37,878 bases of DNA. Origin: Flavobacteriales bacterium (GTDB lineage Bacteria > Bacteroidota > Bacteroidia > Flavobacteriales_D > Cryomorphaceae). The translations under genes and the position numbers were made by a program. The notes under the pieces are model-generated. The model did no database searches, was not told where the DNA came from, and was given only the letters and a program-made list of their open reading frames with translations. Numbering within the stretch: position 1 is the stretch's first letter; the number at the start of each line of letters is the position of its first letter. Where the stretch lies: the NCBI GenBank assembly GCA_022448105.1, contig JAKVAV010000017.1:17995-55872 (forward strand), in the 5' to 3' direction. Positions 8,177 to 18,400 of this stretch are shown here, one piece after another.

Positions 8177-10024
8177 CTAAGCAGGAACTGATTTGATATA
8201 CTTCTCTACAAAGCTGGTGAATACCTCCTGGTGCTTCGTCAAATTCACATCTGGAGATACTGCCACCCGTGCGATATAATCTTTGTCCTCCTCTTTGGTG
8301 GTTCCTTGAGTAGATGTCGCTGGAACCGTCCAATAAACTCCCTTTAGTTGACCGTAACTCACACAATGCTTACTTTCCTCAGGAATCTCAGTAATCATCA
8401 TATTGATCAGAGTAAGATTAAGCCCGCGCTTATGCTCTTCTCTGGCTTCTGGGGTCTCGCCTTTTGCAGGTAAGTCAAGCGAAAAAACAGAAGGAGTAAA
8501 TCCTTGAGCTGCCAATTCTTCTGAGACAAAATTGATCTTTGCATCAGGCAATATCTCTTCAATAAAGGAGACAAAATCTCTTGTGTTTCGATAGGCACGG
8601 TGCACACGTGAAATCATTGAAGGCATCTGCTCTGAGAGTATTGCCCACTGATGCCTAGTAGCCTCGTTATTGCACAACACCAGATGGCTTTCTATGAAGG
8701 GAATCAAGTGCTGCCCTTTCGAGTTAGCCACACAATACCCAGCAATACATCTTCCTCCGCTGGGAAATTTTGATCCGCTTACATAGGAAATGACGGTGCA
8801 AGTTGCGAGTGTATTTGCTTCGCTGCAAAAAGGAACATTTGGACAAAAAGTCTGATCTAAAATGAAAACTGGTTTTACTGCTTCTTGATGGTCTTTCGTT
8901 TGTCTTGATTTGGTCAATACCTTTTCCAATTCCTCCAAATCTGGAACCTCGACTCTGGGATTAGTTGGGATCTCTGCAATAACAAGCGGAACTGCATTGG
9001 TGTCCGCAACATTGGCAAGAACTCGATCAAGACTTCGAACCATATCGTACTCACCGTCTACATGCCAATCGACCACCTGTACTTTTGAATGACTAGCCGC
9101 CACTCTCCTAGCCTGATCATTGGTGCCACCGTAACAGTTTGTCGGAACGATGAACCTTATCTCTTTATTTGGATATTGAGTCATAGCCTGATCTATCAAT
9201 CCCATAGTGATCGCGTACTGGATTGAGAGTCCACTCGAAGCCAGAGAAGTGGAAGAGTCGGTTTGGGTGCTTTCCCTGATTACCTTTCGAACGAGTTCCT
9301 TCTCGTCATCAAGATTAGCGTCGATACCAAAATCAAAGGGTTGACCAATCAGCTTCTTCAAACCTATCAAACAGTTCTGAGGAGTCATCGCGATGCTTTC
9401 TCTTCTTCTCACATGTTGAATTTCGGGAATACAGTCATGATCATTCGCCACCACTACACTACCCAAATATTTATTTAGAGTGACATAAAAATCGACACCT
9501 TGACCACTTGAGAGTGATTCCATATCGTTTCTCTCACTCACCAATATTACTGACCCATCAAAATCTGGAACTTCAGAAATATTCTCGATTTCAATGGTCT
9601 CAAATTGATAACCATAAACTCTTCTGAGAAGATCGATATCAAACCGAAGTTCATCGAAATGAGCAATCAAAGAGTTCTTGCCTTCCATGGTATTCCTGCG
9701 AAGGATTGCAAAAATCGGCATGGTCGCACTGCTGAAAGCAATGAGCTGTGAAGGATCAAGATTATTCAATTTTGCCAATGTCCATTCAAATACACAAGAC
9801 AGCGGATGACCTAATCTTATATAGTCATAAGCCGTTGGCAAGTCGCTTAGTGAATCTCGATCGCTTTGATGGTTCTCATAAAACTTTTCCACCTCTAACA
9901 AAAACTCGCGCTTGGCTTGATTTTCGCGATAAATATCTAGACGGTGAGTGGTGAGCTTGAGCCAGTCCTCTGGCATATTTGCAATAACCTCAGCAACAAA
10001 TTTTTTGATCTTGTTTACTTCCAT
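8177..10024 (-). CDS. PLP-dependent enzyme of the Cys/Met metabolism family (cystathionine gamma-synthase-like), enlarged
   Basis: The 615-residue protein has family hallmarks in its C-terminal part: NCYGGT (297-301), EIPTNP (351-356), the cofactor-contacting Asp390 in FILDQTF and the likely Schiff-base Lys419 in SGSKFPSGG. These place it with cystathionine gamma-synthase, beta-lyase and methionine gamma-lyase, which act on sulfur amino acids through a PLP aldimine. Usual family length is about 380-430, so about 200 residues are extra. The N-terminal part (about 62-230) itself resembles the first half of such an enzyme: HPLSCVFEWTLAKLNNL, then FSSATMPI, then VTLNKYLG with Lys185 and a following LKKL helix. 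A degenerate duplicated fold is a real possibility. Substrate is unknown. It stands alone, divergent from the trp operon. Confidence 0.8.
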   Translation of the reverse strand: MEVNKIKKFVAEVIANMPEDWLKLTTHRLDIYRENQAKREFLLEVEKFYENHQSDRDSLSDLPTAYDYIRLGHPLSCVFEWTLAKLNNLDPSQLIAFSSATMPIFAILRRNTMEGKNSLIAHFDELRFDIDLLRRVYGYQFETIEIENISEVPDFDGSVILVSERNDMESLSSGQGVDFYVTLNKYLGSVVVANDHDCIPEIQHVRRRESIAMTPQNCLIGLKKLIGQPFDFGIDANLDDEKELVRKVIRESTQTDSSTSLASSGLSIQYAITMGLIDQAMTQYPNKEIRFIVPTNCYGGTNDQARRVAASHSKVQVVDWHVDGEYDMVRSLDRVLANVADTNAVPLVIAEIPTNPRVEVPDLEELEKVLTKSRQTKDHQEAVKPVFILDQTFCPNVPFCSEANTLATCTVISYVSGSKFPSGGRCIAGYCVANSKGQHLIPFIESHLVLCNNEATRHQWAILSEQMPSMISRVHRAYRNTRDFVSFIEEILPDAKINFVSEELAAQGFTPSVFSLDLPAKGETPEAREEHKRGLNLTLINMMITEIPEESKHCVSYGQLKGVYWTVPATSTQGTTKEEDKDYIARVAVSPDVNLTKHQEVFTSFVEKYIKSVPA

Positions 10025-10143
10025 TTACAGATGGCATAAAAAGGGTTGCCAAGATGAGGCATTTTTAAGGAATTTGAAAGTTTAAATAAGCACTTCGTTA
10101 GACTTATTGCGACAAGAGAATTTTCGCTTTTTGCAATTTTCTG

Positions 10144-10174
10144 TTTGCAATCAGAAATCTTTCACCTACATTTG
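10144..10174 (+). promoter_or_regulatory. Promoter of the trp operon, Bacteroidota type
   Basis: TTTG at 10144-10147 and TACATTTG at 10167-10174 are separated by 19 bp. This matches the -33 TTTG / -7 TAnnTTTG consensus described for the primary sigma factor of Bacteroidota. Transcription should start about 5 nt after the box (about 10179-10181), only a few bases before the leader-peptide ATG at 10184. Confidence 0.75.
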
Positions 10175-10183
10175 AGATTAGTA

Positions 10184-10246
10184 ATGACCAAGAGAGTACA
10201 AAATACATGGTGGTGGTCTTCCTTCCAAAGCGGAACGAAGCTCTAG
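10184..10246 (+). CDS. trpL: trp operon leader peptide (20 residues, three consecutive Trp)
   Basis: An ATG at 10184 opens a 20-codon frame, MTKRVQNTWWWSS..., ending with TAG at 10244-10246. Codons 9-11 (10208-10216) are TGG TGG TGG. Trp is the rarest residue, and three in a row immediately upstream of a terminator in front of trpE is the signature of a ribosome-mediated attenuation leader. The predicted transcript start is only about 3-5 nt upstream, so the peptide would be translated from an almost leaderless mRNA with no ribosome-binding site. The peptide itself probably has no function beyond sensing charged tRNA-Trp. Confidence 0.88.
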   Translation: MTKRVQNTWWWSSFQSGTKL

Positions 10247-10302
10247 TACCATTTTGTACCAAATAGATATTCAAGCTCCGCAAATATTGCGGAGCTTTTT
10301 TT
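10218..10302 (+). terminator. trp attenuator: pause hairpin, antiterminator and intrinsic terminator
   Basis: Segment 1 (CTTCCTTCC, 10218-10226) pairs with segment 2 (GGAACGAAG, 10232-10240): 8 bp, one C-C mismatch, 5-nt loop. Segment 2 can instead pair with segment 3: 10230-10234 GCGGA with 10277-10281 TCCGC, and 10240-10242 GCT with 10274-10276 AGC. Segments 3 and 4 form a perfect 11-bp stem, AAGCTCCGCAA (10273-10283) with TTGCGGAGCTT (10287-10297), loop ATA, running into seven T's (10296-10302). Segment 1 starts one base after the Trp codons, so a ribosome stalled there would cover it, free segment 2 and prevent the terminator. A ribosome reaching the TAG would cover segment 2 and allow termination. 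trpE starts 10 nt after the T-run. Confidence 0.87.
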
Positions 10303-10312
10303 ATGCCCAAGA

Positions 10313-11728
10313 ATGAAGAAGATTAAAATACATCGAACCTACGAACGGCTCCTGGCTGACACCTTGACACCGGTGGGGATATATCTCAATCTGCGAGATC
10401 ACTACCCGGGAAGTCATTTGCTGGAAAGCTCAGATTATCACTCCAAAGCCGATAGTCTCAGCTTTATTTGTCTTGAGCCTATCGCTGGTTTCGAAGCAAA
10501 AGGCTGTGAATACAATGTTCAGTTTCCTAGCAATAAGACGGATTCTTTCAAGGTGAATGAACTCGGAGAAATTCTCCCAGCATTTCAGAACTACATAGAC
10601 TCTTTCACCTACGCAAAGGATAACCTTCCCTTTCGGACAGCCGGACTTTTTGGCTATTCCTCTTTTGAGGCTTTTCAATACTTTGATGACTTAGAGCTCA
10701 CCGAAAAGCGCTGTGAGATCAAGTCTAATCCTGATCTGATTTATCACCATTTTAAGTATGTGATCGTCATCGATCACTTCAAGAATGAACTCTTCATTGT
10801 AAAGCATGATACTGAACCTTTGGAAGAAAATGACAAAGACATTGCCCATTTGAAGTCGTTGATCGCAGTAAACCATATTGCTCAGTTTTCCTTCAAGATA
10901 ACAGGAGACGAAACCAGTTCAACTCAGCCCGAAGAGTTCAGATCAATGGTGGAAAAGGGAATAGCTCACTGTCAACGAGGAGATGTATTTCAAGTGGTGC
11001 TCTCTCGAGAATTTAACCAGCCGTTCAAAGGTGACGACTTTAACGTGTATCGAAGTCTACGGAATGTAAATCCTAGTCCTTACCTCTTCTATTTCGACTA
11101 CGGCAAGTTCAAGATATTCGGTTCTTCTCCAGAATCTCAACTACAGGTTAATGAAGGTCGTGCGTTCATAGATCCAATTGCAGGAACGGCCAGAAGAACT
11201 GGTGATGCTGAGAAGGATATGATGGCAGCTGAAGAGCTGAAAGCGAATCCCAAAGAGTACGCTGAACACATCATGCTCGTTGATTTAGCTAGAAATGATT
11301 TATCGAGGCATACCAATGAAGTGGAAGTAGAAGAATGCGCGGAGATTCAATACTTTTCGCACGTCATTCACATGGTGAGTAAAGTAAGCGGAGAATTAAT
11401 AGATGAAAGAAGTGGACTGCAAATTTTTGCCGATACTTTTCCTGCTGGTACGCTTTCAGGCGCGCCCAAATACAGGGCAATGCAGATTATTGATGAGCAA
11501 GAGAATCAACCTCGAAATTTCTACGGCGGAGCGATCGGATTCTTTGGGTTCGACGGTTCGGTAAATCACGCAATCATCATACGCTCTGTATTGAGCAAAA
11601 ACAACAAACTGACCTACCAAGCCGGAGCTGGTGTAGTGGTAGAAAGCAGTCCACAAGGAGAATTAGACGAAGTAGATAATAAGGTAGCCGCAATGCGCCG
11701 AGCTATTGCAAAAGCAGAAGAAATATGA
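10313..11728 (+). CDS. trpE: Anthranilate synthase component I
   Basis: This 471-residue subunit converts chorismate plus ammonia to anthranilate. The N-terminal half holds the LLESS motif (36-40), which in characterised enzymes forms the tryptophan feedback site, so allosteric inhibition is expected on top of attenuation. The C-terminal chorismate-binding domain shows CQRGDVFQVVLSREF, NPSPYLFYF, GSSPE, GTARR, LVDLARNDL and GTLSGAPK, and ends with a normal glycine-rich GAGVV segment. Length is in the usual range. It is the first structural gene after the attenuator. Its TGA overlaps the trpG ATG (ATGA, 11725-11728). Confidence 0.97.
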   Translation: MKKIKIHRTYERLLADTLTPVGIYLNLRDHYPGSHLLESSDYHSKADSLSFICLEPIAGFEAKGCEYNVQFPSNKTDSFKVNELGEILPAFQNYIDSFTYAKDNLPFRTAGLFGYSSFEAFQYFDDLELTEKRCEIKSNPDLIYHHFKYVIVIDHFKNELFIVKHDTEPLEENDKDIAHLKSLIAVNHIAQFSFKITGDETSSTQPEEFRSMVEKGIAHCQRGDVFQVVLSREFNQPFKGDDFNVYRSLRNVNPSPYLFYFDYGKFKIFGSSPESQLQVNEGRAFIDPIAGTARRTGDAEKDMMAAEELKANPKEYAEHIMLVDLARNDLSRHTNEVEVEECAEIQYFSHVIHMVSKVSGELIDERSGLQIFADTFPAGTLSGAPKYRAMQIIDEQENQPRNFYGGAIGFFGFDGSVNHAIIIRSVLSKNNKLTYQAGAGVVVESSPQGELDEVDNKVAAMRRAIAKAEEI

Positions 11729-12294
11729 GCACATTGGTTTTAGACAATTACGACAGTTTCACTTTCAATCTTGTACACATTTTGAGGGAACTCGAAGTGC
11801 CTCACGAAGTACATCGTAACGACAAAATTGACGTTTCCGAAGTGGAAAGATTCGATAGAATACTCTTCTCTCCAGGTCCTGGAATTCCTTCCGAAGCGGG
11901 CAATATGCCTGAGATCATAGAGACTTTCATCGGTAAAAAACCGATGTTGGGAATCTGTCTCGGCCATCAAGCCATTGCCGAACATCTCGGCGGGAAGATT
12001 GAGAACATGTCGAAGGTTTATCACGGGATCAGCACTCCAATTTTTCAGAAGGAATCTTCAAAACTTTTCAAGGATGTTCCTAAAGAGTTTGAAGCAGGGC
12101 GCTACCATTCCTGGAAGGTGAGTAAAGAGAATTTGCCAGAAAGCATTCGAATTACCTCGGAAGACGAACACGGCGACATCATGTCTTTTGATGCCAAGGA
12201 ACTCATGGCTTTCGGGATTCAATTTCATCCGGAGAGTGTGATGACGCCGGAGGGAAGCAAGATGATTCAAAACTTTGTAGAACTAGGAAAATGA
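11725..12294 (+). CDS. trpG: Anthranilate synthase component II (glutamine amidotransferase)
   Basis: This 189-residue class I glutamine amidotransferase subunit supplies ammonia to TrpE. The nucleophile Cys78 lies in GICLGHQ, and the His168/Glu170 pair in FHPES completes the triad. The oxyanion-site PGPG is at 50-53. The closing motif (HPESVMTPEG) is that of a stand-alone TrpG/PabA protein, not fused to TrpD as in enterobacteria. As in many bacteria, such a subunit might also serve aminodeoxychorismate synthase; no pab gene is visible here. The start ATG overlaps the trpE stop and the stop overlaps the trpD start, each by 4 nt. Confidence 0.96.
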   Translation: MSTLVLDNYDSFTFNLVHILRELEVPHEVHRNDKIDVSEVERFDRILFSPGPGIPSEAGNMPEIIETFIGKKPMLGICLGHQAIAEHLGGKIENMSKVYHGISTPIFQKESSKLFKDVPKEFEAGRYHSWKVSKENLPESIRITSEDEHGDIMSFDAKELMAFGIQFHPESVMTPEGSKMIQNFVELGK

Positions 12295-13280
12295 AGGAGA
12301 CCTTAGAATATCTTTTTGCACACAACACACTCACTCAAGACGAGGCAAAGCAAATGCTCACGGAGATTTCTGAAGAGCGTTTTGATCCTTTTCAGGTGGC
12401 TGCTTTTCTCACCATTTTCCGTGTAAGAGGAATAACGGTTGAAGAATTGAGCGGATTTAGAGAAGCACTATTAGAGTTATCTCGTCCGGTAGATTTGGAT
12501 GATTTCAACCCTGTCGACCTTTGCGGTACGGGCGGTGACGGTAAAGACACATTCAATATTTCCACCCTCGCATCATTTGTGACGGCAGGTGCTGGAGTGA
12601 AAGTCGCCAAGCATGGAAATTACGGAGTTAGCTCGTCATGCGGTTCTTCAAATGTAATGGAAGCGCTAGGCTATACTTTCTCGGGAAACGAAGACGATCT
12701 TAAGCGACAGATTGACAAGGCAGGCATTTGTTTTCTGCATGCTCCCCTCTTCCATCCCGCGATGAAAGCGGTGGCACCCATTCGCAGAAGTATCGGTGTG
12801 AGAACCTTCTTCAATATGCTCGGTCCGATGGTAAACCCATCAAGACCCAAAAATCAGCTGGTCGGGGTTTTCTCGATGGAACTACTTCGTTTTTACAATT
12901 ACATCTATCAAGAGACGGACATCAATTACCGCATAGTGCATTCACTCGATGGTTATGATGAAATCTCCCTGACATCTGATACCAAAGTACTCAGCCCAGA
13001 GAAGGAAGAAATGCTCGACGCAAAAGCCTTCGGAGTAAAAGAGCTCACTCAAGAATCGCTGTACGGAGGAAGCACCGTCCAAGAAGCTGCCAGGATCTTC
13101 ACCAATGTTTTAAAAGGAGATGCCACGACAGAGCAGAGAGCAGTGGTTTGTGCAAATAGCGGAATGGCCATTTCCTGCGCAAGAACTGATTTATCTCTCC
13201 AGGAAGGAATCGGATTAGCCAAAGAATCACTAGATAGTGGCAGCGCTTACAATGCTCTAGAAACCCTGATCGAACTATGA
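12291..13280 (+). CDS. trpD: Anthranilate phosphoribosyltransferase
   Basis: This 329-residue enzyme joins anthranilate to PRPP, giving phosphoribosyl-anthranilate. The glycine-rich PRPP site CGTGGDGKDTFNIST is at residues 78-92, and KHGNYGVSSSCGSSNVMEALG (about 104-124) is the second signature. It is followed by the LGPMVNPSRPK segment that lines the anthranilate channel. A small N-terminal helical domain precedes the alpha/beta domain, as usual for the family. It is a free-standing protein, not a TrpG-TrpD fusion. It overlaps both neighbours by ATGA. Confidence 0.97.
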   Translation: MKETLEYLFAHNTLTQDEAKQMLTEISEERFDPFQVAAFLTIFRVRGITVEELSGFREALLELSRPVDLDDFNPVDLCGTGGDGKDTFNISTLASFVTAGAGVKVAKHGNYGVSSSCGSSNVMEALGYTFSGNEDDLKRQIDKAGICFLHAPLFHPAMKAVAPIRRSIGVRTFFNMLGPMVNPSRPKNQLVGVFSMELLRFYNYIYQETDINYRIVHSLDGYDEISLTSDTKVLSPEKEEMLDAKAFGVKELTQESLYGGSTVQEAARIFTNVLKGDATTEQRAVVCANSGMAISCARTDLSLQEGIGLAKESLDSGSAYNALETLIEL

Positions 13281-14071
13281 CGATACTCGAAGAAATAATG
13301 GCGCACAAGCGTAAAGAAGTGGCGCAAGCTGAAGAACTGCGACCAATCAAATTACTAGAGAAAAGCATTTTCTTCGAAACGCCGTCAGTCTCGATGAGTG
13401 AATACCTAAAACGGGAAGACAAGGTGGGCATCATCGCAGAAATAAAGAGGGCCTCTCCTAGCCTCGGTATGATACACGAATATGCCGACGTTGAACAACT
13501 GAGTATCGGATATATGCAGGCTGGCGCGTCTGCTCTAAGTGTTCTCAGCGATACGAAGTATTTCGGTGGAACACTAAAGGATATTGAAATAGCGCGAAAG
13601 TTTAACTACTGTCCCATTCTCCGGAAGGACTTTATGCTGTCAGAATATCAGCTCATTGAAGCCAAGAGTCATGGCGCTGATTGTATCTTATTGATTGCCG
13701 CTGCTCTTGATTCGCAAACATCGAAGGGTCTTTCTCGAACCGCGAAACAGCTCGGGTTAGAGGTTTTACTAGAAGTTCATAACAAAGAAGAAATTGATGA
13801 ATATGCTTCGGAAGATGTAGATGTGATTGGCGTGAACAATCGAAATCTTCATGACTTCACGACCAATATTCAAACGAGTATTGATCTATCTGATAATATC
13901 CCGTCAGAGTTCGTGAAGATTAGCGAAAGTGGCATTTCAAATCCAGAAGCAATTCAGCAACTCAAAGAAGTAGGATTCGATGGTTTTCTGATTGGAGGGT
14001 ATTTCATGGAGCACGCTCAACCGGAAGAGGCTTGTGCCAACTTAATTAAAGCGGTAAAGGAGAAGAAATGA
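13277..14071 (+). CDS. trpC: Indole-3-glycerol-phosphate synthase
   Basis: This 264-residue (beta/alpha)8 enzyme closes the indole ring with loss of CO2. IIAEIKRASPS (52-62) carries the catalytic Glu55 and Lys57, PILRKDFM holds the catalytic Lys near 117, and VIGVNNRNL and ISESGI are the later phosphate and product contacts. The common PSKG motif reads PSLG here. It is a single-function protein, separate from TrpF, unlike the enterobacterial TrpCF fusion. It overlaps trpD and trpF by 4 nt each. Confidence 0.96.
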   Translation: MTILEEIMAHKRKEVAQAEELRPIKLLEKSIFFETPSVSMSEYLKREDKVGIIAEIKRASPSLGMIHEYADVEQLSIGYMQAGASALSVLSDTKYFGGTLKDIEIARKFNYCPILRKDFMLSEYQLIEAKSHGADCILLIAAALDSQTSKGLSRTAKQLGLEVLLEVHNKEEIDEYASEDVDVIGVNNRNLHDFTTNIQTSIDLSDNIPSEFVKISESGISNPEAIQQLKEVGFDGFLIGGYFMEHAQPEEACANLIKAVKEKK

Positions 14072-14724
14072 AGGTTAAGATTTGTGGCATGAGAGAATTG
14101 GAAAACGTGAGGGATGTGGCTGCACTTCAACCTGATTACATGGGATTTATATTTTATAATAAATCAAAAAGATATGTTTTTGAGAAAGAAACGGCATCTC
14201 AACTACCTGCCCGTCCTTCAGGCGGACGCTCGATGACCTTGGATCTCGGAGAGATCGAAAAAGTCGGTGTATTCGTAAATGAAGAACCTGCGGAGGTCAT
14301 TCGAATATGCAAGGATTATGGCCTCAATTATGCTCAGCTACACGGAAGTGAGTCTACTGAAGACTGCATAGCCATAAGAATAAAAGGAATCAACGTTATT
14401 AAAGCCTTTTCGGTATCCAACGAAATTGATTTCGAAGAACTGAAAGAGTACGAAGGCAAGGTTGACTTCTTTCTTTTCGATACAAAAACCAAAGACCACG
14501 GAGGAAGCGGAAGACAGTTTGACTGGAACCTTCTCAAATCTTACCCACTGAGTACTCGTTATTTTCTAAGTGGAGGTATCGGAGTCCATGATATTATTAA
14601 AATAATTGAATTAGAACTACCTCAATGTGAAGGAATAGATGCCAATAGTAGATTGGAAATCAGACCTGCACTGAAGGACATAGAAGCAACAAGAGAATTA
14701 ATCTCACAAATAAGGAATAGATGA
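14068..14724 (+). CDS. trpF: Phosphoribosylanthranilate isomerase, with an insertion
   Basis: This 218-residue (beta/alpha)8 enzyme performs the Amadori rearrangement to CdRP. KICGM at the N-terminus (Cys6), [30 protein letters not shown] with the catalytic Asp, and the FLSGGI phosphate site are all present. Between the first loop (KSKRYV) and VGVFVN there are about 28 residues, where E. coli PRAI has about 16-17. The extra piece, around [12 protein letters not shown], is encoded by a stretch containing an inverted repeat (CGTCC 14212-14216 / GGACG 14224-14228). It lies in a surface loop next to a conserved strand, so activity is probably kept. It overlaps trpC and trpB by 4 nt each. Confidence 0.94.
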
Positions 14725-15887
14725 GTTTGAAAATTGATGAACAGGGTTTTTACGGAGAGTTTGGAGGAGCATATATTCCTGAGATGCTCTACCCGAACGT
14801 GGAAGAGTTGAAGGAGAGTTATCTCAAAATCATTCATTCAGATGAGTTCCAAAAGGAATTTCAAGCGCTCCTGAAAGACTATGTGGGAAGACCAACACCA
14901 CTTTATCTGGCAGAAAGACTAAGTGAGCATTACAGCGCAGAAATCTGGTTGAAGAGAGAGGATCTGTGCCATACCGGAGCTCACAAGGTAAACAATACCA
15001 TTGGTCAGATACTCCTTGCTGAAAGACTTGGGAAAAAGAGAATCATTGCTGAGACCGGAGCCGGTCAGCACGGTGTGGCCACGGCCACTGCATGCGCTCT
15101 TAAAGGACTTGAGTGCATCGTGTACATGGGCGAAAAGGATATTGCCCGTCAAGCACCAAATGTTTCTCGCATGCGCATGCTAGGAGCCGAAGTACGACCA
15201 GCTATGAGCGGAAGCCGCACATTGAAAGACGCGACTAACGAGGCTATCAGAGATTGGATTAACAACCCAACAGATACTCACTACATCATCGGATCAGTTG
15301 TTGGGCCACATCCCTACCCTGACCTGGTAGCTCGACTTCAGGCAGTGATCTCCGAAGAAATTAAAGCTCAGCTTGACGGAAATCCAACGCACATCATGGC
15401 TTGTGTTGGTGGTGGTTCAAATGCCATCGGAGCATTCTATCATTTCCTAGACGATGAGGATGTAGAACTCATCGGCTTGGAGGCAGCAGGTCACGGTATC
15501 AATACCGATAAATCAGCTGCTACCATGGCTTTAGGCACTCCCGGAGTTCTTCATGCAAGCATGACTTTAGTGATGCAAACACTAGATGGACAGGTTACAG
15601 AGCCACACAGCGTATCGGCTGGACTCGATTACCCAGGAGTTGGACCTTGGCATGCTCACCTTCACAAAGAAGGTAGAGTTAGGTACGAAAGCGTTACCGA
15701 TCAGGAAGCGCTCGACGCGGTACTCCTACTTTCTAGAAAAGAGGGTATCATTCCTGCGCTAGAAACGGCTCATGCTTTTGCTCATCTCGAAAAGATGGAT
15801 TTGAAGCCAACAGATCGTATTGTAATCAATCTGAGCGGACGCGGAGACAAAGACCTTTCTACTTACATCGAATTTCTGGACGTATGA
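14721..15887 (+). CDS. trpB: Tryptophan synthase beta subunit
   Basis: This 388-residue PLP enzyme condenses indole with serine. The PLP lysine is Lys89 in HTGAHKVNN, the catalytic Glu111 lies in ETGAGQHG, and [10 protein letters not shown] is the phosphate-binding loop. The start ([15 protein letters not shown]) and the closing LSGRGDKD segment are typical of the TrpB1 type that works with TrpA in the same operon, not the stand-alone TrpB2. Length is normal. It overlaps trpF and trpA by 4 nt each. Confidence 0.98.
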
Positions 15888-16663
15888 AGAAGCTAAAAGA
15901 AATACTCATCAGCAAACCGAATGGTCTCCTAAACATCTACTGCACCGCTGGCTATCCAAATTTGAATGATCTGCCGACCATCGTGAATTCACTTCATGAA
16001 GCCGGTGCAGATATGATTGAAATTGGTATGCCCTACTCTGACCCGATCGCCGATGGACCGACTATTCAAGAGAGTAATGGTGTCGCCCTTGGAAATGGGA
16101 TAAGCATCGAAAAGATCTTCGAGCAGCTAGAGCTCTGCAAACCAAAGATTCCAAAAATTTTAATGGGCTATATCAATCCAGTCATGCAATTTGGATTGGA
16201 GAAATTCTGCTCTCGATGCGAAGAAACAGGAATTGATGGCCTCATCCTGCCCGACCTTCCAATAGAGATTTACGAGAGCAAGTACAAGGCGCTTTTTGAG
16301 AAGCACAGATTGAGCAATATCTTTCTGATTACTCCCCAAACGGCTTTGGAACGAATTCAGAAAATTGACAATTTGAGCTCAACCTTCATCTACGCAGTAA
16401 GTTCAGCTAGTACCACTGGCAAAGGCAATGGTCTGGCTGCAGCCAATGATTACCTCGAAGGTTTGAAGTCCCTGCCGATTGATCATCCAATTCTTGTGGG
16501 ATTCAACATTTCTAAACCGGAAGATTTAGCGCTAGTCCACAAACATGCCAATGGTGGAATTATAGGATCTGCATTTATCAAGTATCTCAAAGACAAACCT
16601 GAAGTGGGACAAGCCAGCAAAGACTTCGTTGATTATATCACCAATAGTGCTCCAGTATCATGA
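15884..16663 (+). CDS. trpA: Tryptophan synthase alpha subunit
   Basis: This 259-residue (beta/alpha)8 subunit cleaves indole-3-glycerol phosphate and passes indole to TrpB through the alpha-beta tunnel. The catalytic acids are Glu46 ([11 protein letters not shown]) and Asp57 (IADGP), corresponding to E. coli Glu49 and Asp60. LPDLPIE and the SSASTTGKG loop (here in place of the more common SRAGVTG) bind the substrate phosphate side. [10 protein letters not shown] and [12 protein letters not shown] are the closing phosphate site. It overlaps trpB and aroF by ATGA. Confidence 0.97.
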
Positions 16664-17664
16664 TCATTCAAATCGAACAAGACATTTCCAAAAGTGAAGA
16701 AGAAGCGATTCAGAATGCCCTGGCCAATCTGAATATTGAATGGTATCCAGTAGAAACCCAAATGGGAAGATATTTGGTTTGCGTTTGCAAAAGTGAATTT
16801 GACATCCGAACCATTGGCGCTCTTCCGGGTGTGAAAGATCTTCATCGCGTAAGCGGAAAACACAAACTGGTGAGTAGTAAGTGGAAAGTTGGACGCACGG
16901 CTGTCGACATCGGAGGAGGTGAAAGTATCGGTGCGAACGGACTAACCGTCATGGCGGGACCTTGCAGCATCGAGAGCGAAGAGCAAATCGAGAAGGTCGT
17001 TGAGCAGCTGGTGAAACACGGAGTGACCGTCATGCGCGGCGGTGTCTATAAGCCTCGAACGAGTCCTTACTCTTTTCGCGGATTGGGAATTGAGGGGTTG
17101 AAAACCTTTCACCGAATTTGTCGAGCAAACGGAATAAAGATCATCACCGAAGTGATGGAAGCCGCTCAGATTGAAGACATGTTCGACTATGTAGACATCT
17201 ATCAGGTTGGAGCACGGAATTCTCAGAACTTCAACTTGCTTGATGAGCTTGGGAAAGTAGACAAACCGGTAATGCTCAAAAGAGGCATCAGCGGAAGCAT
17301 TGACGAACTGCTTTACTCAGCCGAATACGTTTTCAAAAATGGAAATGAAAAAGTAATCCTCTGCGAGCGAGGAATAAGGACCTTTGAGACAGCGTCTAGA
17401 AATACCCTCGACCTCAACGCAGTTCCGATTTTGCAAGAAAAGTCCCACTTACCCGTAGTGGTAGACCCTTCTCACGGAATCGGGATCAGAAAGCACGTTA
17501 TCCCGATGGCATTGGCAGGAGTTGCATCAGGGGCCGATGGAATCATCGTCGAAATTCACGAAAAACCAGAGAAGGCAGCTACCGATGGACAACAGACCTT
17601 GGACTTTGCACAGTTTGGAGAGATGATGAGGAAGGTGAGGGCGGTTGAAGGGGTGTTGGTTTAA
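16660..17664 (+). CDS. aroF: 3-deoxy-7-phosphoheptulonate (DAHP) synthase, type I-beta with N-terminal regulatory domain
   Basis: This 334-residue enzyme makes DAHP from PEP and erythrose-4-phosphate, the first step of the shikimate pathway. Residues 1-70 form a ferredoxin-like (ACT-resembling) domain as in the Thermotoga-type enzyme, where it mediates allosteric control by aromatic amino acids. The barrel begins at about residue 85 and carries MAGPCSIES, RGGVYKPRTSPYSFRGLG, QVGARNSQNF, LKRGI, LCERGIRTFE and VDPSHGIG (metal and substrate ligands). Its ATG overlaps the trpA stop, so pathway entry flux is under the same trp attenuator. It is the last gene of the operon. Confidence 0.95.
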   Translation: MIIQIEQDISKSEEEAIQNALANLNIEWYPVETQMGRYLVCVCKSEFDIRTIGALPGVKDLHRVSGKHKLVSSKWKVGRTAVDIGGGESIGANGLTVMAGPCSIESEEQIEKVVEQLVKHGVTVMRGGVYKPRTSPYSFRGLGIEGLKTFHRICRANGIKIITEVMEAAQIEDMFDYVDIYQVGARNSQNFNLLDELGKVDKPVMLKRGISGSIDELLYSAEYVFKNGNEKVILCERGIRTFETASRNTLDLNAVPILQEKSHLPVVVDPSHGIGIRKHVIPMALAGVASGADGIIVEIHEKPEKAATDGQQTLDFAQFGEMMRKVRAVEGVLV

Positions 17665-17790
17665 AACGATTCCCTTAATATTTCATTTCCATCATGCCGC
17701 AGGGTTGCAACTTAGCGAAGCGATCTCACTCAGCGAAGCAAGTAAACCCAGTGGAGCAGAGAGATCAGCCCGTCAGCCTTTGTAAAGGTG

Positions 17791-17810
17791 TCCTAAAACG
17801 TGTTTTGGGA
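17791..17810 (+). terminator. Possible stem-loop downstream of the trp operon
   Basis: TCCTAAAACG/TGTTTTGGGA folds into a stem of about 8-9 pairs with a very short loop and is followed by CTTCTC, only weakly T-rich. It is the best candidate for a terminator in the 220-bp gap after aroF but is not a canonical one. The same gap holds two copies of AGCGAAGC, at about 17714 and 17733. Confidence 0.3.
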
Positions 17811-17884
17811 CTTCTCATTCGCGATTTGAGTCGCACGTCTATTTCCATCTACCCATTTTTGCTCCGTATTCAAAACACAAATAG

Positions 17885-18400
17885 ATGAAAACAAAAACAA
17901 TCACCGTTCTCTTCTTTCTATTGATCTGCTCCACCGCATGTACGGCGCAAGAGGTATGGACCAATAAGTCGAGAATTCTCCCAGATAAACTCAGAAAAGT
18001 TCTCACCATTTTGACCTTAAGTCATAGTCCAAACCCAAACTATCCAGAACTAGCTAATGAGCCAGGAATTGAAACCAAATACGTTTGGAAACACAGCACT
18101 TCAGTTTGCTCTCCTTACCAAGATCTCGAAGTGGTAGAAGCTGGCTCTTTTATCTGGTACGACAAAACGGGTTGGAAGGAAAATATGCAACTCAACAAGC
18201 GAGAATTTATAAAGCGCTTCAACTGTCCAAAAGGCAAATTGAAGAAAGGACAATGCTACACCTATGAAAAGAACTATCGCTACGGAAATAACCTGTACGG
18301 AGGAGATGCCATGTGGTATGTAATTGCCAAAGATGCAGGAGGAAATCTTGTGAAGGGATTCGGAATACTAGAAACTGAGGCGGAACTTAAAAAAGACTAA
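17885..18400 (+). CDS. Small exported protein, probable lipoprotein, function unknown
   Basis: This 171-residue protein begins with a signal sequence (MKTKTITVLFFLLICSTAC); STAC around Cys19 fits a lipobox. Mature residues include two Cys-containing segments (VCSPYQDL, FNCPKGKLKKGQCYTY) and a C-terminal region with many aromatic residues (YRYGNNLYGGDAMWYV). No named family is recognised. It lies 2 nt before the YceI gene, so the two are very likely co-transcribed. Confidence 0.65.
   Translation: MKTKTITVLFFLLICSTACTAQEVWTNKSRILPDKLRKVLTILTLSHSPNPNYPELANEPGIETKYVWKHSTSVCSPYQDLEVVEAGSFIWYDKTGWKENMQLNKREFIKRFNCPKGKLKKGQCYTYEKNYRYGNNLYGGDAMWYVIAKDAGGNLVKGFGILETEAELKKD

Follow-up and report, generated by a model that had tools for sequence, protein, structure and literature searches.

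Attenuators listed by Vitreschak in 2004 reportedly also included candidates in Bacteroidetes/Chlorobi. The Bacteroid-trp motif (Rfam RF01692), a trp leader in Flavobacteriaceae and others, was put forward as a probable cis-acting regulatory RNA in Bacteroidetes (Weinberg 2010, PMC2864571). It was later likened to the E. coli trp leader in a study of F. psychrophilum and read as a trp attenuator (Rochat 2019, PMC6414381), and the transcriptome of the same species hinted strongly that amino-acid operons are preceded by leader-peptide attenuators (PMC9723704). In S. meliloti, a leaderless Trp leader is already known (PMC7298713).

Here, we analysed a stretch of 37,878 nucleotides (the window) from the 3.5-Mb draft genome of a Flavobacteriales bacterium, in which a Bacteroidota promoter is followed by a leader ORF and then by an eight-gene operon composed of trpEGDCFBA and a DAHP synthase gene (Table 1). 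We propose, with a probability of about 0.94, that a ribosome-mediated attenuator at this locus controls the transcription of all eight genes by sensing charged tRNA-Trp, its response to tryptophan being what sequence and folding models lead us to expect.

Table 1. Features of the putative attenuator and of the operon behind it (positions in the window).
Feature	Coordinates	Strand	Basis
Bacteroidota sigma-A promoter	10144..10174	+	TTTG 10144-10147, 19-base spacer, TACATTTG 10167-10174 (sequence)
Predicted 5'UTR of ~5 nt, start site ~10179	10179..10183	+	-7 box to ATG gap of 9 nt
Leader ORF MTKRVQNTWWWSSFQSGTKL, 20 codons, ATG 10184, stop TAG 10244-10246	10184..10246	+	Sequence, homologous leaders
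Three consecutive Trp codons (regulatory codons)	10208..10216	+	Sequence, ribosome-masking folds
Extended 1:2 hairpin: outer 10196-10202/10253-10259 and 10207-10212/10247-10252; inner 10218-10226/10232-10240	10196..10259	+	MFE fold
Segment 2, antiterminator arm, partner of segment 3	10230..10242	+	Duplex AGCGGAACGAAGCTC x AAGCTCCGCA
Segment 3, terminator 5' arm	10273..10283	+	Terminator scan, masking folds
Segment 4 (10287-10297) and U-run (T's 10296-10302)	10287..10302	+	11 pairs, 6 GC
trpE	10313..11728	+	Pfam PF00425, PF04715
trpG	11725..12294	+	PF00117
trpD	12291..13280	+	PF00591, PF02885
trpC	13277..14071	+	PF00218
trpF	14068..14724	+	PF00697
trpB	14721..15887	+	PF00291 and position in operon
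trpA	15884..16663	+	PF00290
DAHP synthase, eighth and last gene of the operon	16660..17664	+	PF00793; TIGR01361 and NF006421 above cut-off

The promoter (TTTG-N19-TACATTTG) and the 20-codon leader with TGG TGG TGG described in the initial annotation were both recovered from the sequence, and a short Trp-codon leader ORF thus stands between a promoter and the first trp gene, as is characteristic of this functional class. A scan for sigma-70-type promoters was uninformative in this phylum. Since the -7 box of F. psychrophilum lies at -12 to -5 (PMC9723704), the length of a 5'UTR can be approximated as the gap between box and start codon minus 4, which predicts about 5 nt at the window leader. 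Downstream, each of the seven ORFs that follow trpE overlaps the preceding one by 4 nt. As trpE to trpA and the DAHP synthase gene are part of one operon, the switch would govern the whole pathway together with its entry enzyme. On the other side, the minus strand encodes a divergent 615-aa protein (8177-10024) that is weakly similar to Cys/Met-metabolism PLP enzymes (PF01053, E = 5e-9; NCBIfam scores far below the cut-offs).

The leader region is strongly structured, as the folding energy of 10180-10312 (-41.9 kcal/mol, z = -5.5) was equalled by none of 200 shuffled sequences. The inner stem of the 1:2 hairpin is made of 8 bp and one C-C mismatch, as first described; the extent originally given was too small, however, because in the MFE fold the hairpin runs outward through the Trp codons and those preceding them (10196-10212/10247-10259). 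Without a ribosome, this extended hairpin forms with probabilities of 0.88-0.99. Duplex and masking folds bore out the competing 2:3 pairing as real though short and interrupted: GCGGA (10230-10234) pairs with TCCGC, a short second block flanks an internal loop, and the duplex reaches -10.1 kcal/mol with a modest single-sequence p value of 0.035. The 3:4 terminator is the perfect 11-bp helix with seven T's that had been announced (loop ATA), the first two T's lying within the stem, and its pair count is the highest in a terminator scan of 9900-18000. The 2:3 antiterminator and the 3:4 intrinsic terminator are mutually exclusive.

Folding with and without a masked ribosome footprint revealed that the choice between 2:3 and the terminator depends on ribosome position. 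In a simulated partial transcript cut at 10283, where segment 3 has emerged and segment 4 is yet to be made, the probability of the 2:3 pairing was 0.98-0.99 whichever of the three Trp codons occupied the A site of the masked ribosome, and 0.00 with the ribosome at the stop codon or without ribosome. A stall on the Trp codons hence favours 2:3 and a ribosome at the stop codon favours 3:4 in silico, as expected of this class of attenuators. When the full-length RNA was folded at equilibrium, the terminator won in every case (~0.93), indicating that the choice must fall during transcription and that antitermination would be kinetic, as in E. coli. The same masking calculation returned the expected pattern for E. 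coli trpL, used as a positive control (~0.07 / 0.56-0.73 / 0.07). Of 53 leaders of relatives, 27 had the terminator 5' arm more sequestered at the stall than at the stop, 2 showed the reverse (Wilcoxon p = 3e-7), and about half gave no clear difference, so that this simple footprint model is not decisive copy by copy.

The arrangement is widely conserved. Our survey covered 65 trpE loci drawn from numerous families of the class Bacteroidia, and counted as leaders those ATG ORFs within 300 nt that span 8-35 codons and contain WW or WxW. Such leaders were present at 55 of the 65 loci, and a first-order Markov null yielded 1.08 on average (at most 3 in 50 runs), which excludes chance. A terminator accompanied 53 of the 55. 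The closest relative, a metagenome-assembled 'Bacteroidia bacterium' (L042) with a TrpE 73% identical and the leader MLGQNTYTSWWWTSFNLEKKH, keeps the same parts with a changed sequence. It was the sole close relative returned by the scan of named genomes, the window genome being assigned to Bacteroidota, class Bacteroidia, through its relatives. As the two-sequence alignment was too sparse for a covariance test, we exchanged segments between species instead. The mean energy of the 2:3 pairing thereby weakened from -12.85 to -9.78 kcal/mol and that of the outer stem from -11.71 to -8.61 kcal/mol, the true pairing being reached in 0 of 5000 permutations in either case; for relatedness, these counts were corrected only by keeping 44 distinct terminators. 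The initial annotation had proposed to look upstream of trpE in relatives for conserved Trp-codon leaders and compensatory stem changes; Trp-codon leaders do recur there, and the pairings are stronger within than between species.

Ten loci fell outside our definition. One leader has a non-ATG start (L049), one WWW leader lies further upstream, in front of trpB (L069), four leaders carry a single Trp codon (L044, L045, L057 and L084), and at two loci a Bacteroid-trp match was located upstream of an intervening gene (L079 and L082). Only at L064 and L089, two of the 65 loci inspected, was no leader found upstream of trpE. The leaders with one Trp codon, such as MKLWQKYYSPKPLLIKGMG in L045, are retained across three genomes belonging to a single genus and are possibly weaker or altered sensors. 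A genus neighbour of the window genome (G267) has no trpE match at 1e-60 and is for that reason not a counter-example.

Two further observations were made in the course of this survey. In the order to which the window belongs (families f2 and f3), the majority of the genomes sampled, G267 included, lack a strong TrpE match, the matches found being only at the level of related chorismate enzymes, and the presence of the trp operon is patchy. Moreover, in addition to the Flavobacteriaceae sequence type, a second one recurs at eight loci from several families (L043, L051, L053, L060, L081 and L086-L088): segment 2 is here a GAACAGC-like stretch that coincides with or adjoins the stop codon, and its partner is a GCTGTTC in the 5' arm and loop of the terminator.

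Our results establish the anatomy of the locus, its conservation and, in silico, a switch that responds to ribosome position. The attenuator may operate as follows. RNA polymerase would start near 10179, and a ribosome translating the leader would load almost at the RNA 5' end, on the ATG at 10184. When tryptophan is scarce, this ribosome would stall on the codons at 10208-10216 and cover segment 1, allowing segment 2 to pair with the emerging segment 3 and transcription to read through, provided that 2:3 is kinetically trapped. When tryptophan is plentiful, the ribosome would reach the stop codon at 10244 and cover segment 2, the 3:4 terminator would form, and the transcript would end near 10302. 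Without any ribosome, the long 1:2 hairpin would hold segment 2 and make termination the default.

The position of the promoter suggests that the leader ORF begins nearly at the RNA end, and we observed the same in most homologues. A 6/6 match to the -7 box was found at most 25 nt from the leader start for 40 of the 55 homologous leaders, compared to none of 220 shifted positions. In an unbiased scan of the 150 nt upstream, the predicted 5'UTR was shorter than 10 nt in 40 of the 50 Trp leaders with a strong promoter (median gap, 7.5 nt) and in 18 of 22 His leaders before hisG, one of them in the window genome. Ordinary genes of that genome, examined by the same scan, gave 10 of 105 and a median gap of 54, this control relying on longest-ATG starts that may misplace starts and tend to widen the spread. 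In published maps, leaderless mRNAs account for 5.5% in F. psychrophilum (PMC9723704), and 5'UTRs shorter than 10 nt for about 3.7% in B. thetaiotaomicron. A near-leaderless start is thus a strong and apparently general trait of these attenuators, as predicted from promoter position.

The His leaders deserve separate mention. Short His-rich ORFs were found upstream of hisG at 24 of 31 loci (L093-L122 and the window genome), mostly with a predicted 5'UTR below 10 nt. In the window genome, a probable his attenuator precedes hisG (L123:821-880, reverse-complemented locus, G000:C15). Its His-codon leader ORF, MRNHTHQHHAFSSVHPEER, has a -7 box at a distance of 7 nt upstream of the ATG, and a GC-rich terminator is present as well.

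We lean, with some reserve, towards a broader interpretation: in the class Bacteroidia, where only a small share of mRNAs is devoid of a 5'UTR, amino-acid attenuators would systematically use leaderless or near-leaderless leader ORFs. Translation would then be coupled to transcription by ribosomes that enter at the 5' end of the RNA, and not through a Shine-Dalgarno site or an A-rich 5'UTR, and control of this type would extend to almost all trp operons of the class. Taken singly, the locus is ordinary biology; of more interest are the occurrence of the arrangement at nearly every sampled trp operon of the class and the near-leaderless leaders. A common layout is suggested, in which the leader ORF starts only a few bases from the end of the RNA; it would offer a concrete handle on how ribosomes that do without Shine-Dalgarno sites can load quickly enough to couple transcription and translation.

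Other explanations of the locus were weighed against attenuation alone. The leader peptide or the terminated leader RNA could also act in trans, like peTrpL and rnTrpL of S. meliloti, attenuation then being one of two roles. The near-leaderless leader ORF does resemble S. meliloti trpL (PMC7298713), but outside the Trp block the homologous leader peptides are free to vary, which speaks against the peptide having a conserved function; we consider a second role of this kind highly unlikely. We give even less credit to the idea that the locus regulates nothing, the intergenic terminator being constitutive and the Trp-rich ORF a product of chance. Short W-rich ORFs can arise randomly, and a perfect terminator would work without any leader; yet leaders recur far above the number expected from chance, both competing pairings co-vary between species, the promoter stands directly in front of the leader, and the operon would be silent if the terminator ahead of trpE were unconditional.

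Tryptophan could finally be sensed by a TRAP-type protein or a T-box and not by a ribosome, since in other phyla these systems end in the same choice between terminator and antiterminator. However, only about four (G/U)AG triplets occur between 10180 and 10272, not a series of about eleven, the window yielded no T-box match in Rfam, and a conserved Trp-codon leader needs a ribosome. Such control seems barely conceivable here, and ribosome-mediated attenuation remains our preferred reading.

A covariance-model search against known Trp leaders was used to place the locus among described families. For RF01692 (cut-off, 49 bits), no match at E <= 10 was obtained in 10000-10450 or anywhere in the window genome, so the window copy does not reach the score required for membership; its context, upstream of trp genes in a Bacteroidota genome with a Trp leader and a terminator, is nevertheless that of the family. 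Only 5 of the 159 class genomes pass this cut-off, and trpE is present in 52 of the 159, suggesting that trp attenuation in Bacteroidota reaches far beyond the copies found by present Rfam models. The homologues collected here provide many natural variants from which a better RNA model could be built. The enterobacterial Trp_leader model (RF00513) scored 32.4 bits on the window copy, below its cut-off of 41 bits, and passed in none of the 159 class genomes, in agreement with the claim that such models do not cover this attenuator. A sub-threshold RF00513 match is weak as a sign of homology to E. coli, as matches at E <= 0.01 occurred in 65 of the 159 genomes, mostly away from trpE. The view that the logic of E. 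coli is carried here by an unrelated sequence stood up to the masking folds and to class-wide conservation, while the novelty attached to it was overstated in light of RF01692 and the F. psychrophilum papers.

Compared to RF01692 elements, the attenuator shares its position upstream of trp genes in Bacteroidota, and the copies at L002, L008, L009, L011, L074 and L077 have a WWW leader and a GC-rich terminator with the parts in the same order. The best-scoring RF01692 members are of the Flavobacteriaceae type, with an NNTWWWxNLRQTS leader and a GGCTTGTC...GACAAGCC terminator, whereas the window copy is unmatched. With E. coli trpL, it has in common a Trp-codon leader, the 1:2, 2:3 and 3:4 pairings and the same simulated response to the ribosome. 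It differs by its unrelated sequence, the absence of a Shine-Dalgarno site, three Trp codons instead of two, a 1:2 hairpin that extends upstream of these codons, and a start predicted to be near-leaderless, while the 5'UTR of E. coli trpL is longer (26 nt). S. meliloti trpL-trpE(G) is likewise a Trp attenuator, with a leader mRNA that begins at the leader ATG (PMC7298713), but its sequence and promoter are alphaproteobacterial, whereas about 5 nt are predicted before the ATG in the window and a complete trp set with a DAHP synthase gene is controlled. The window attenuator is therefore a member of neither existing model and is of the same kind as the RF01692 elements and E. coli trpL.
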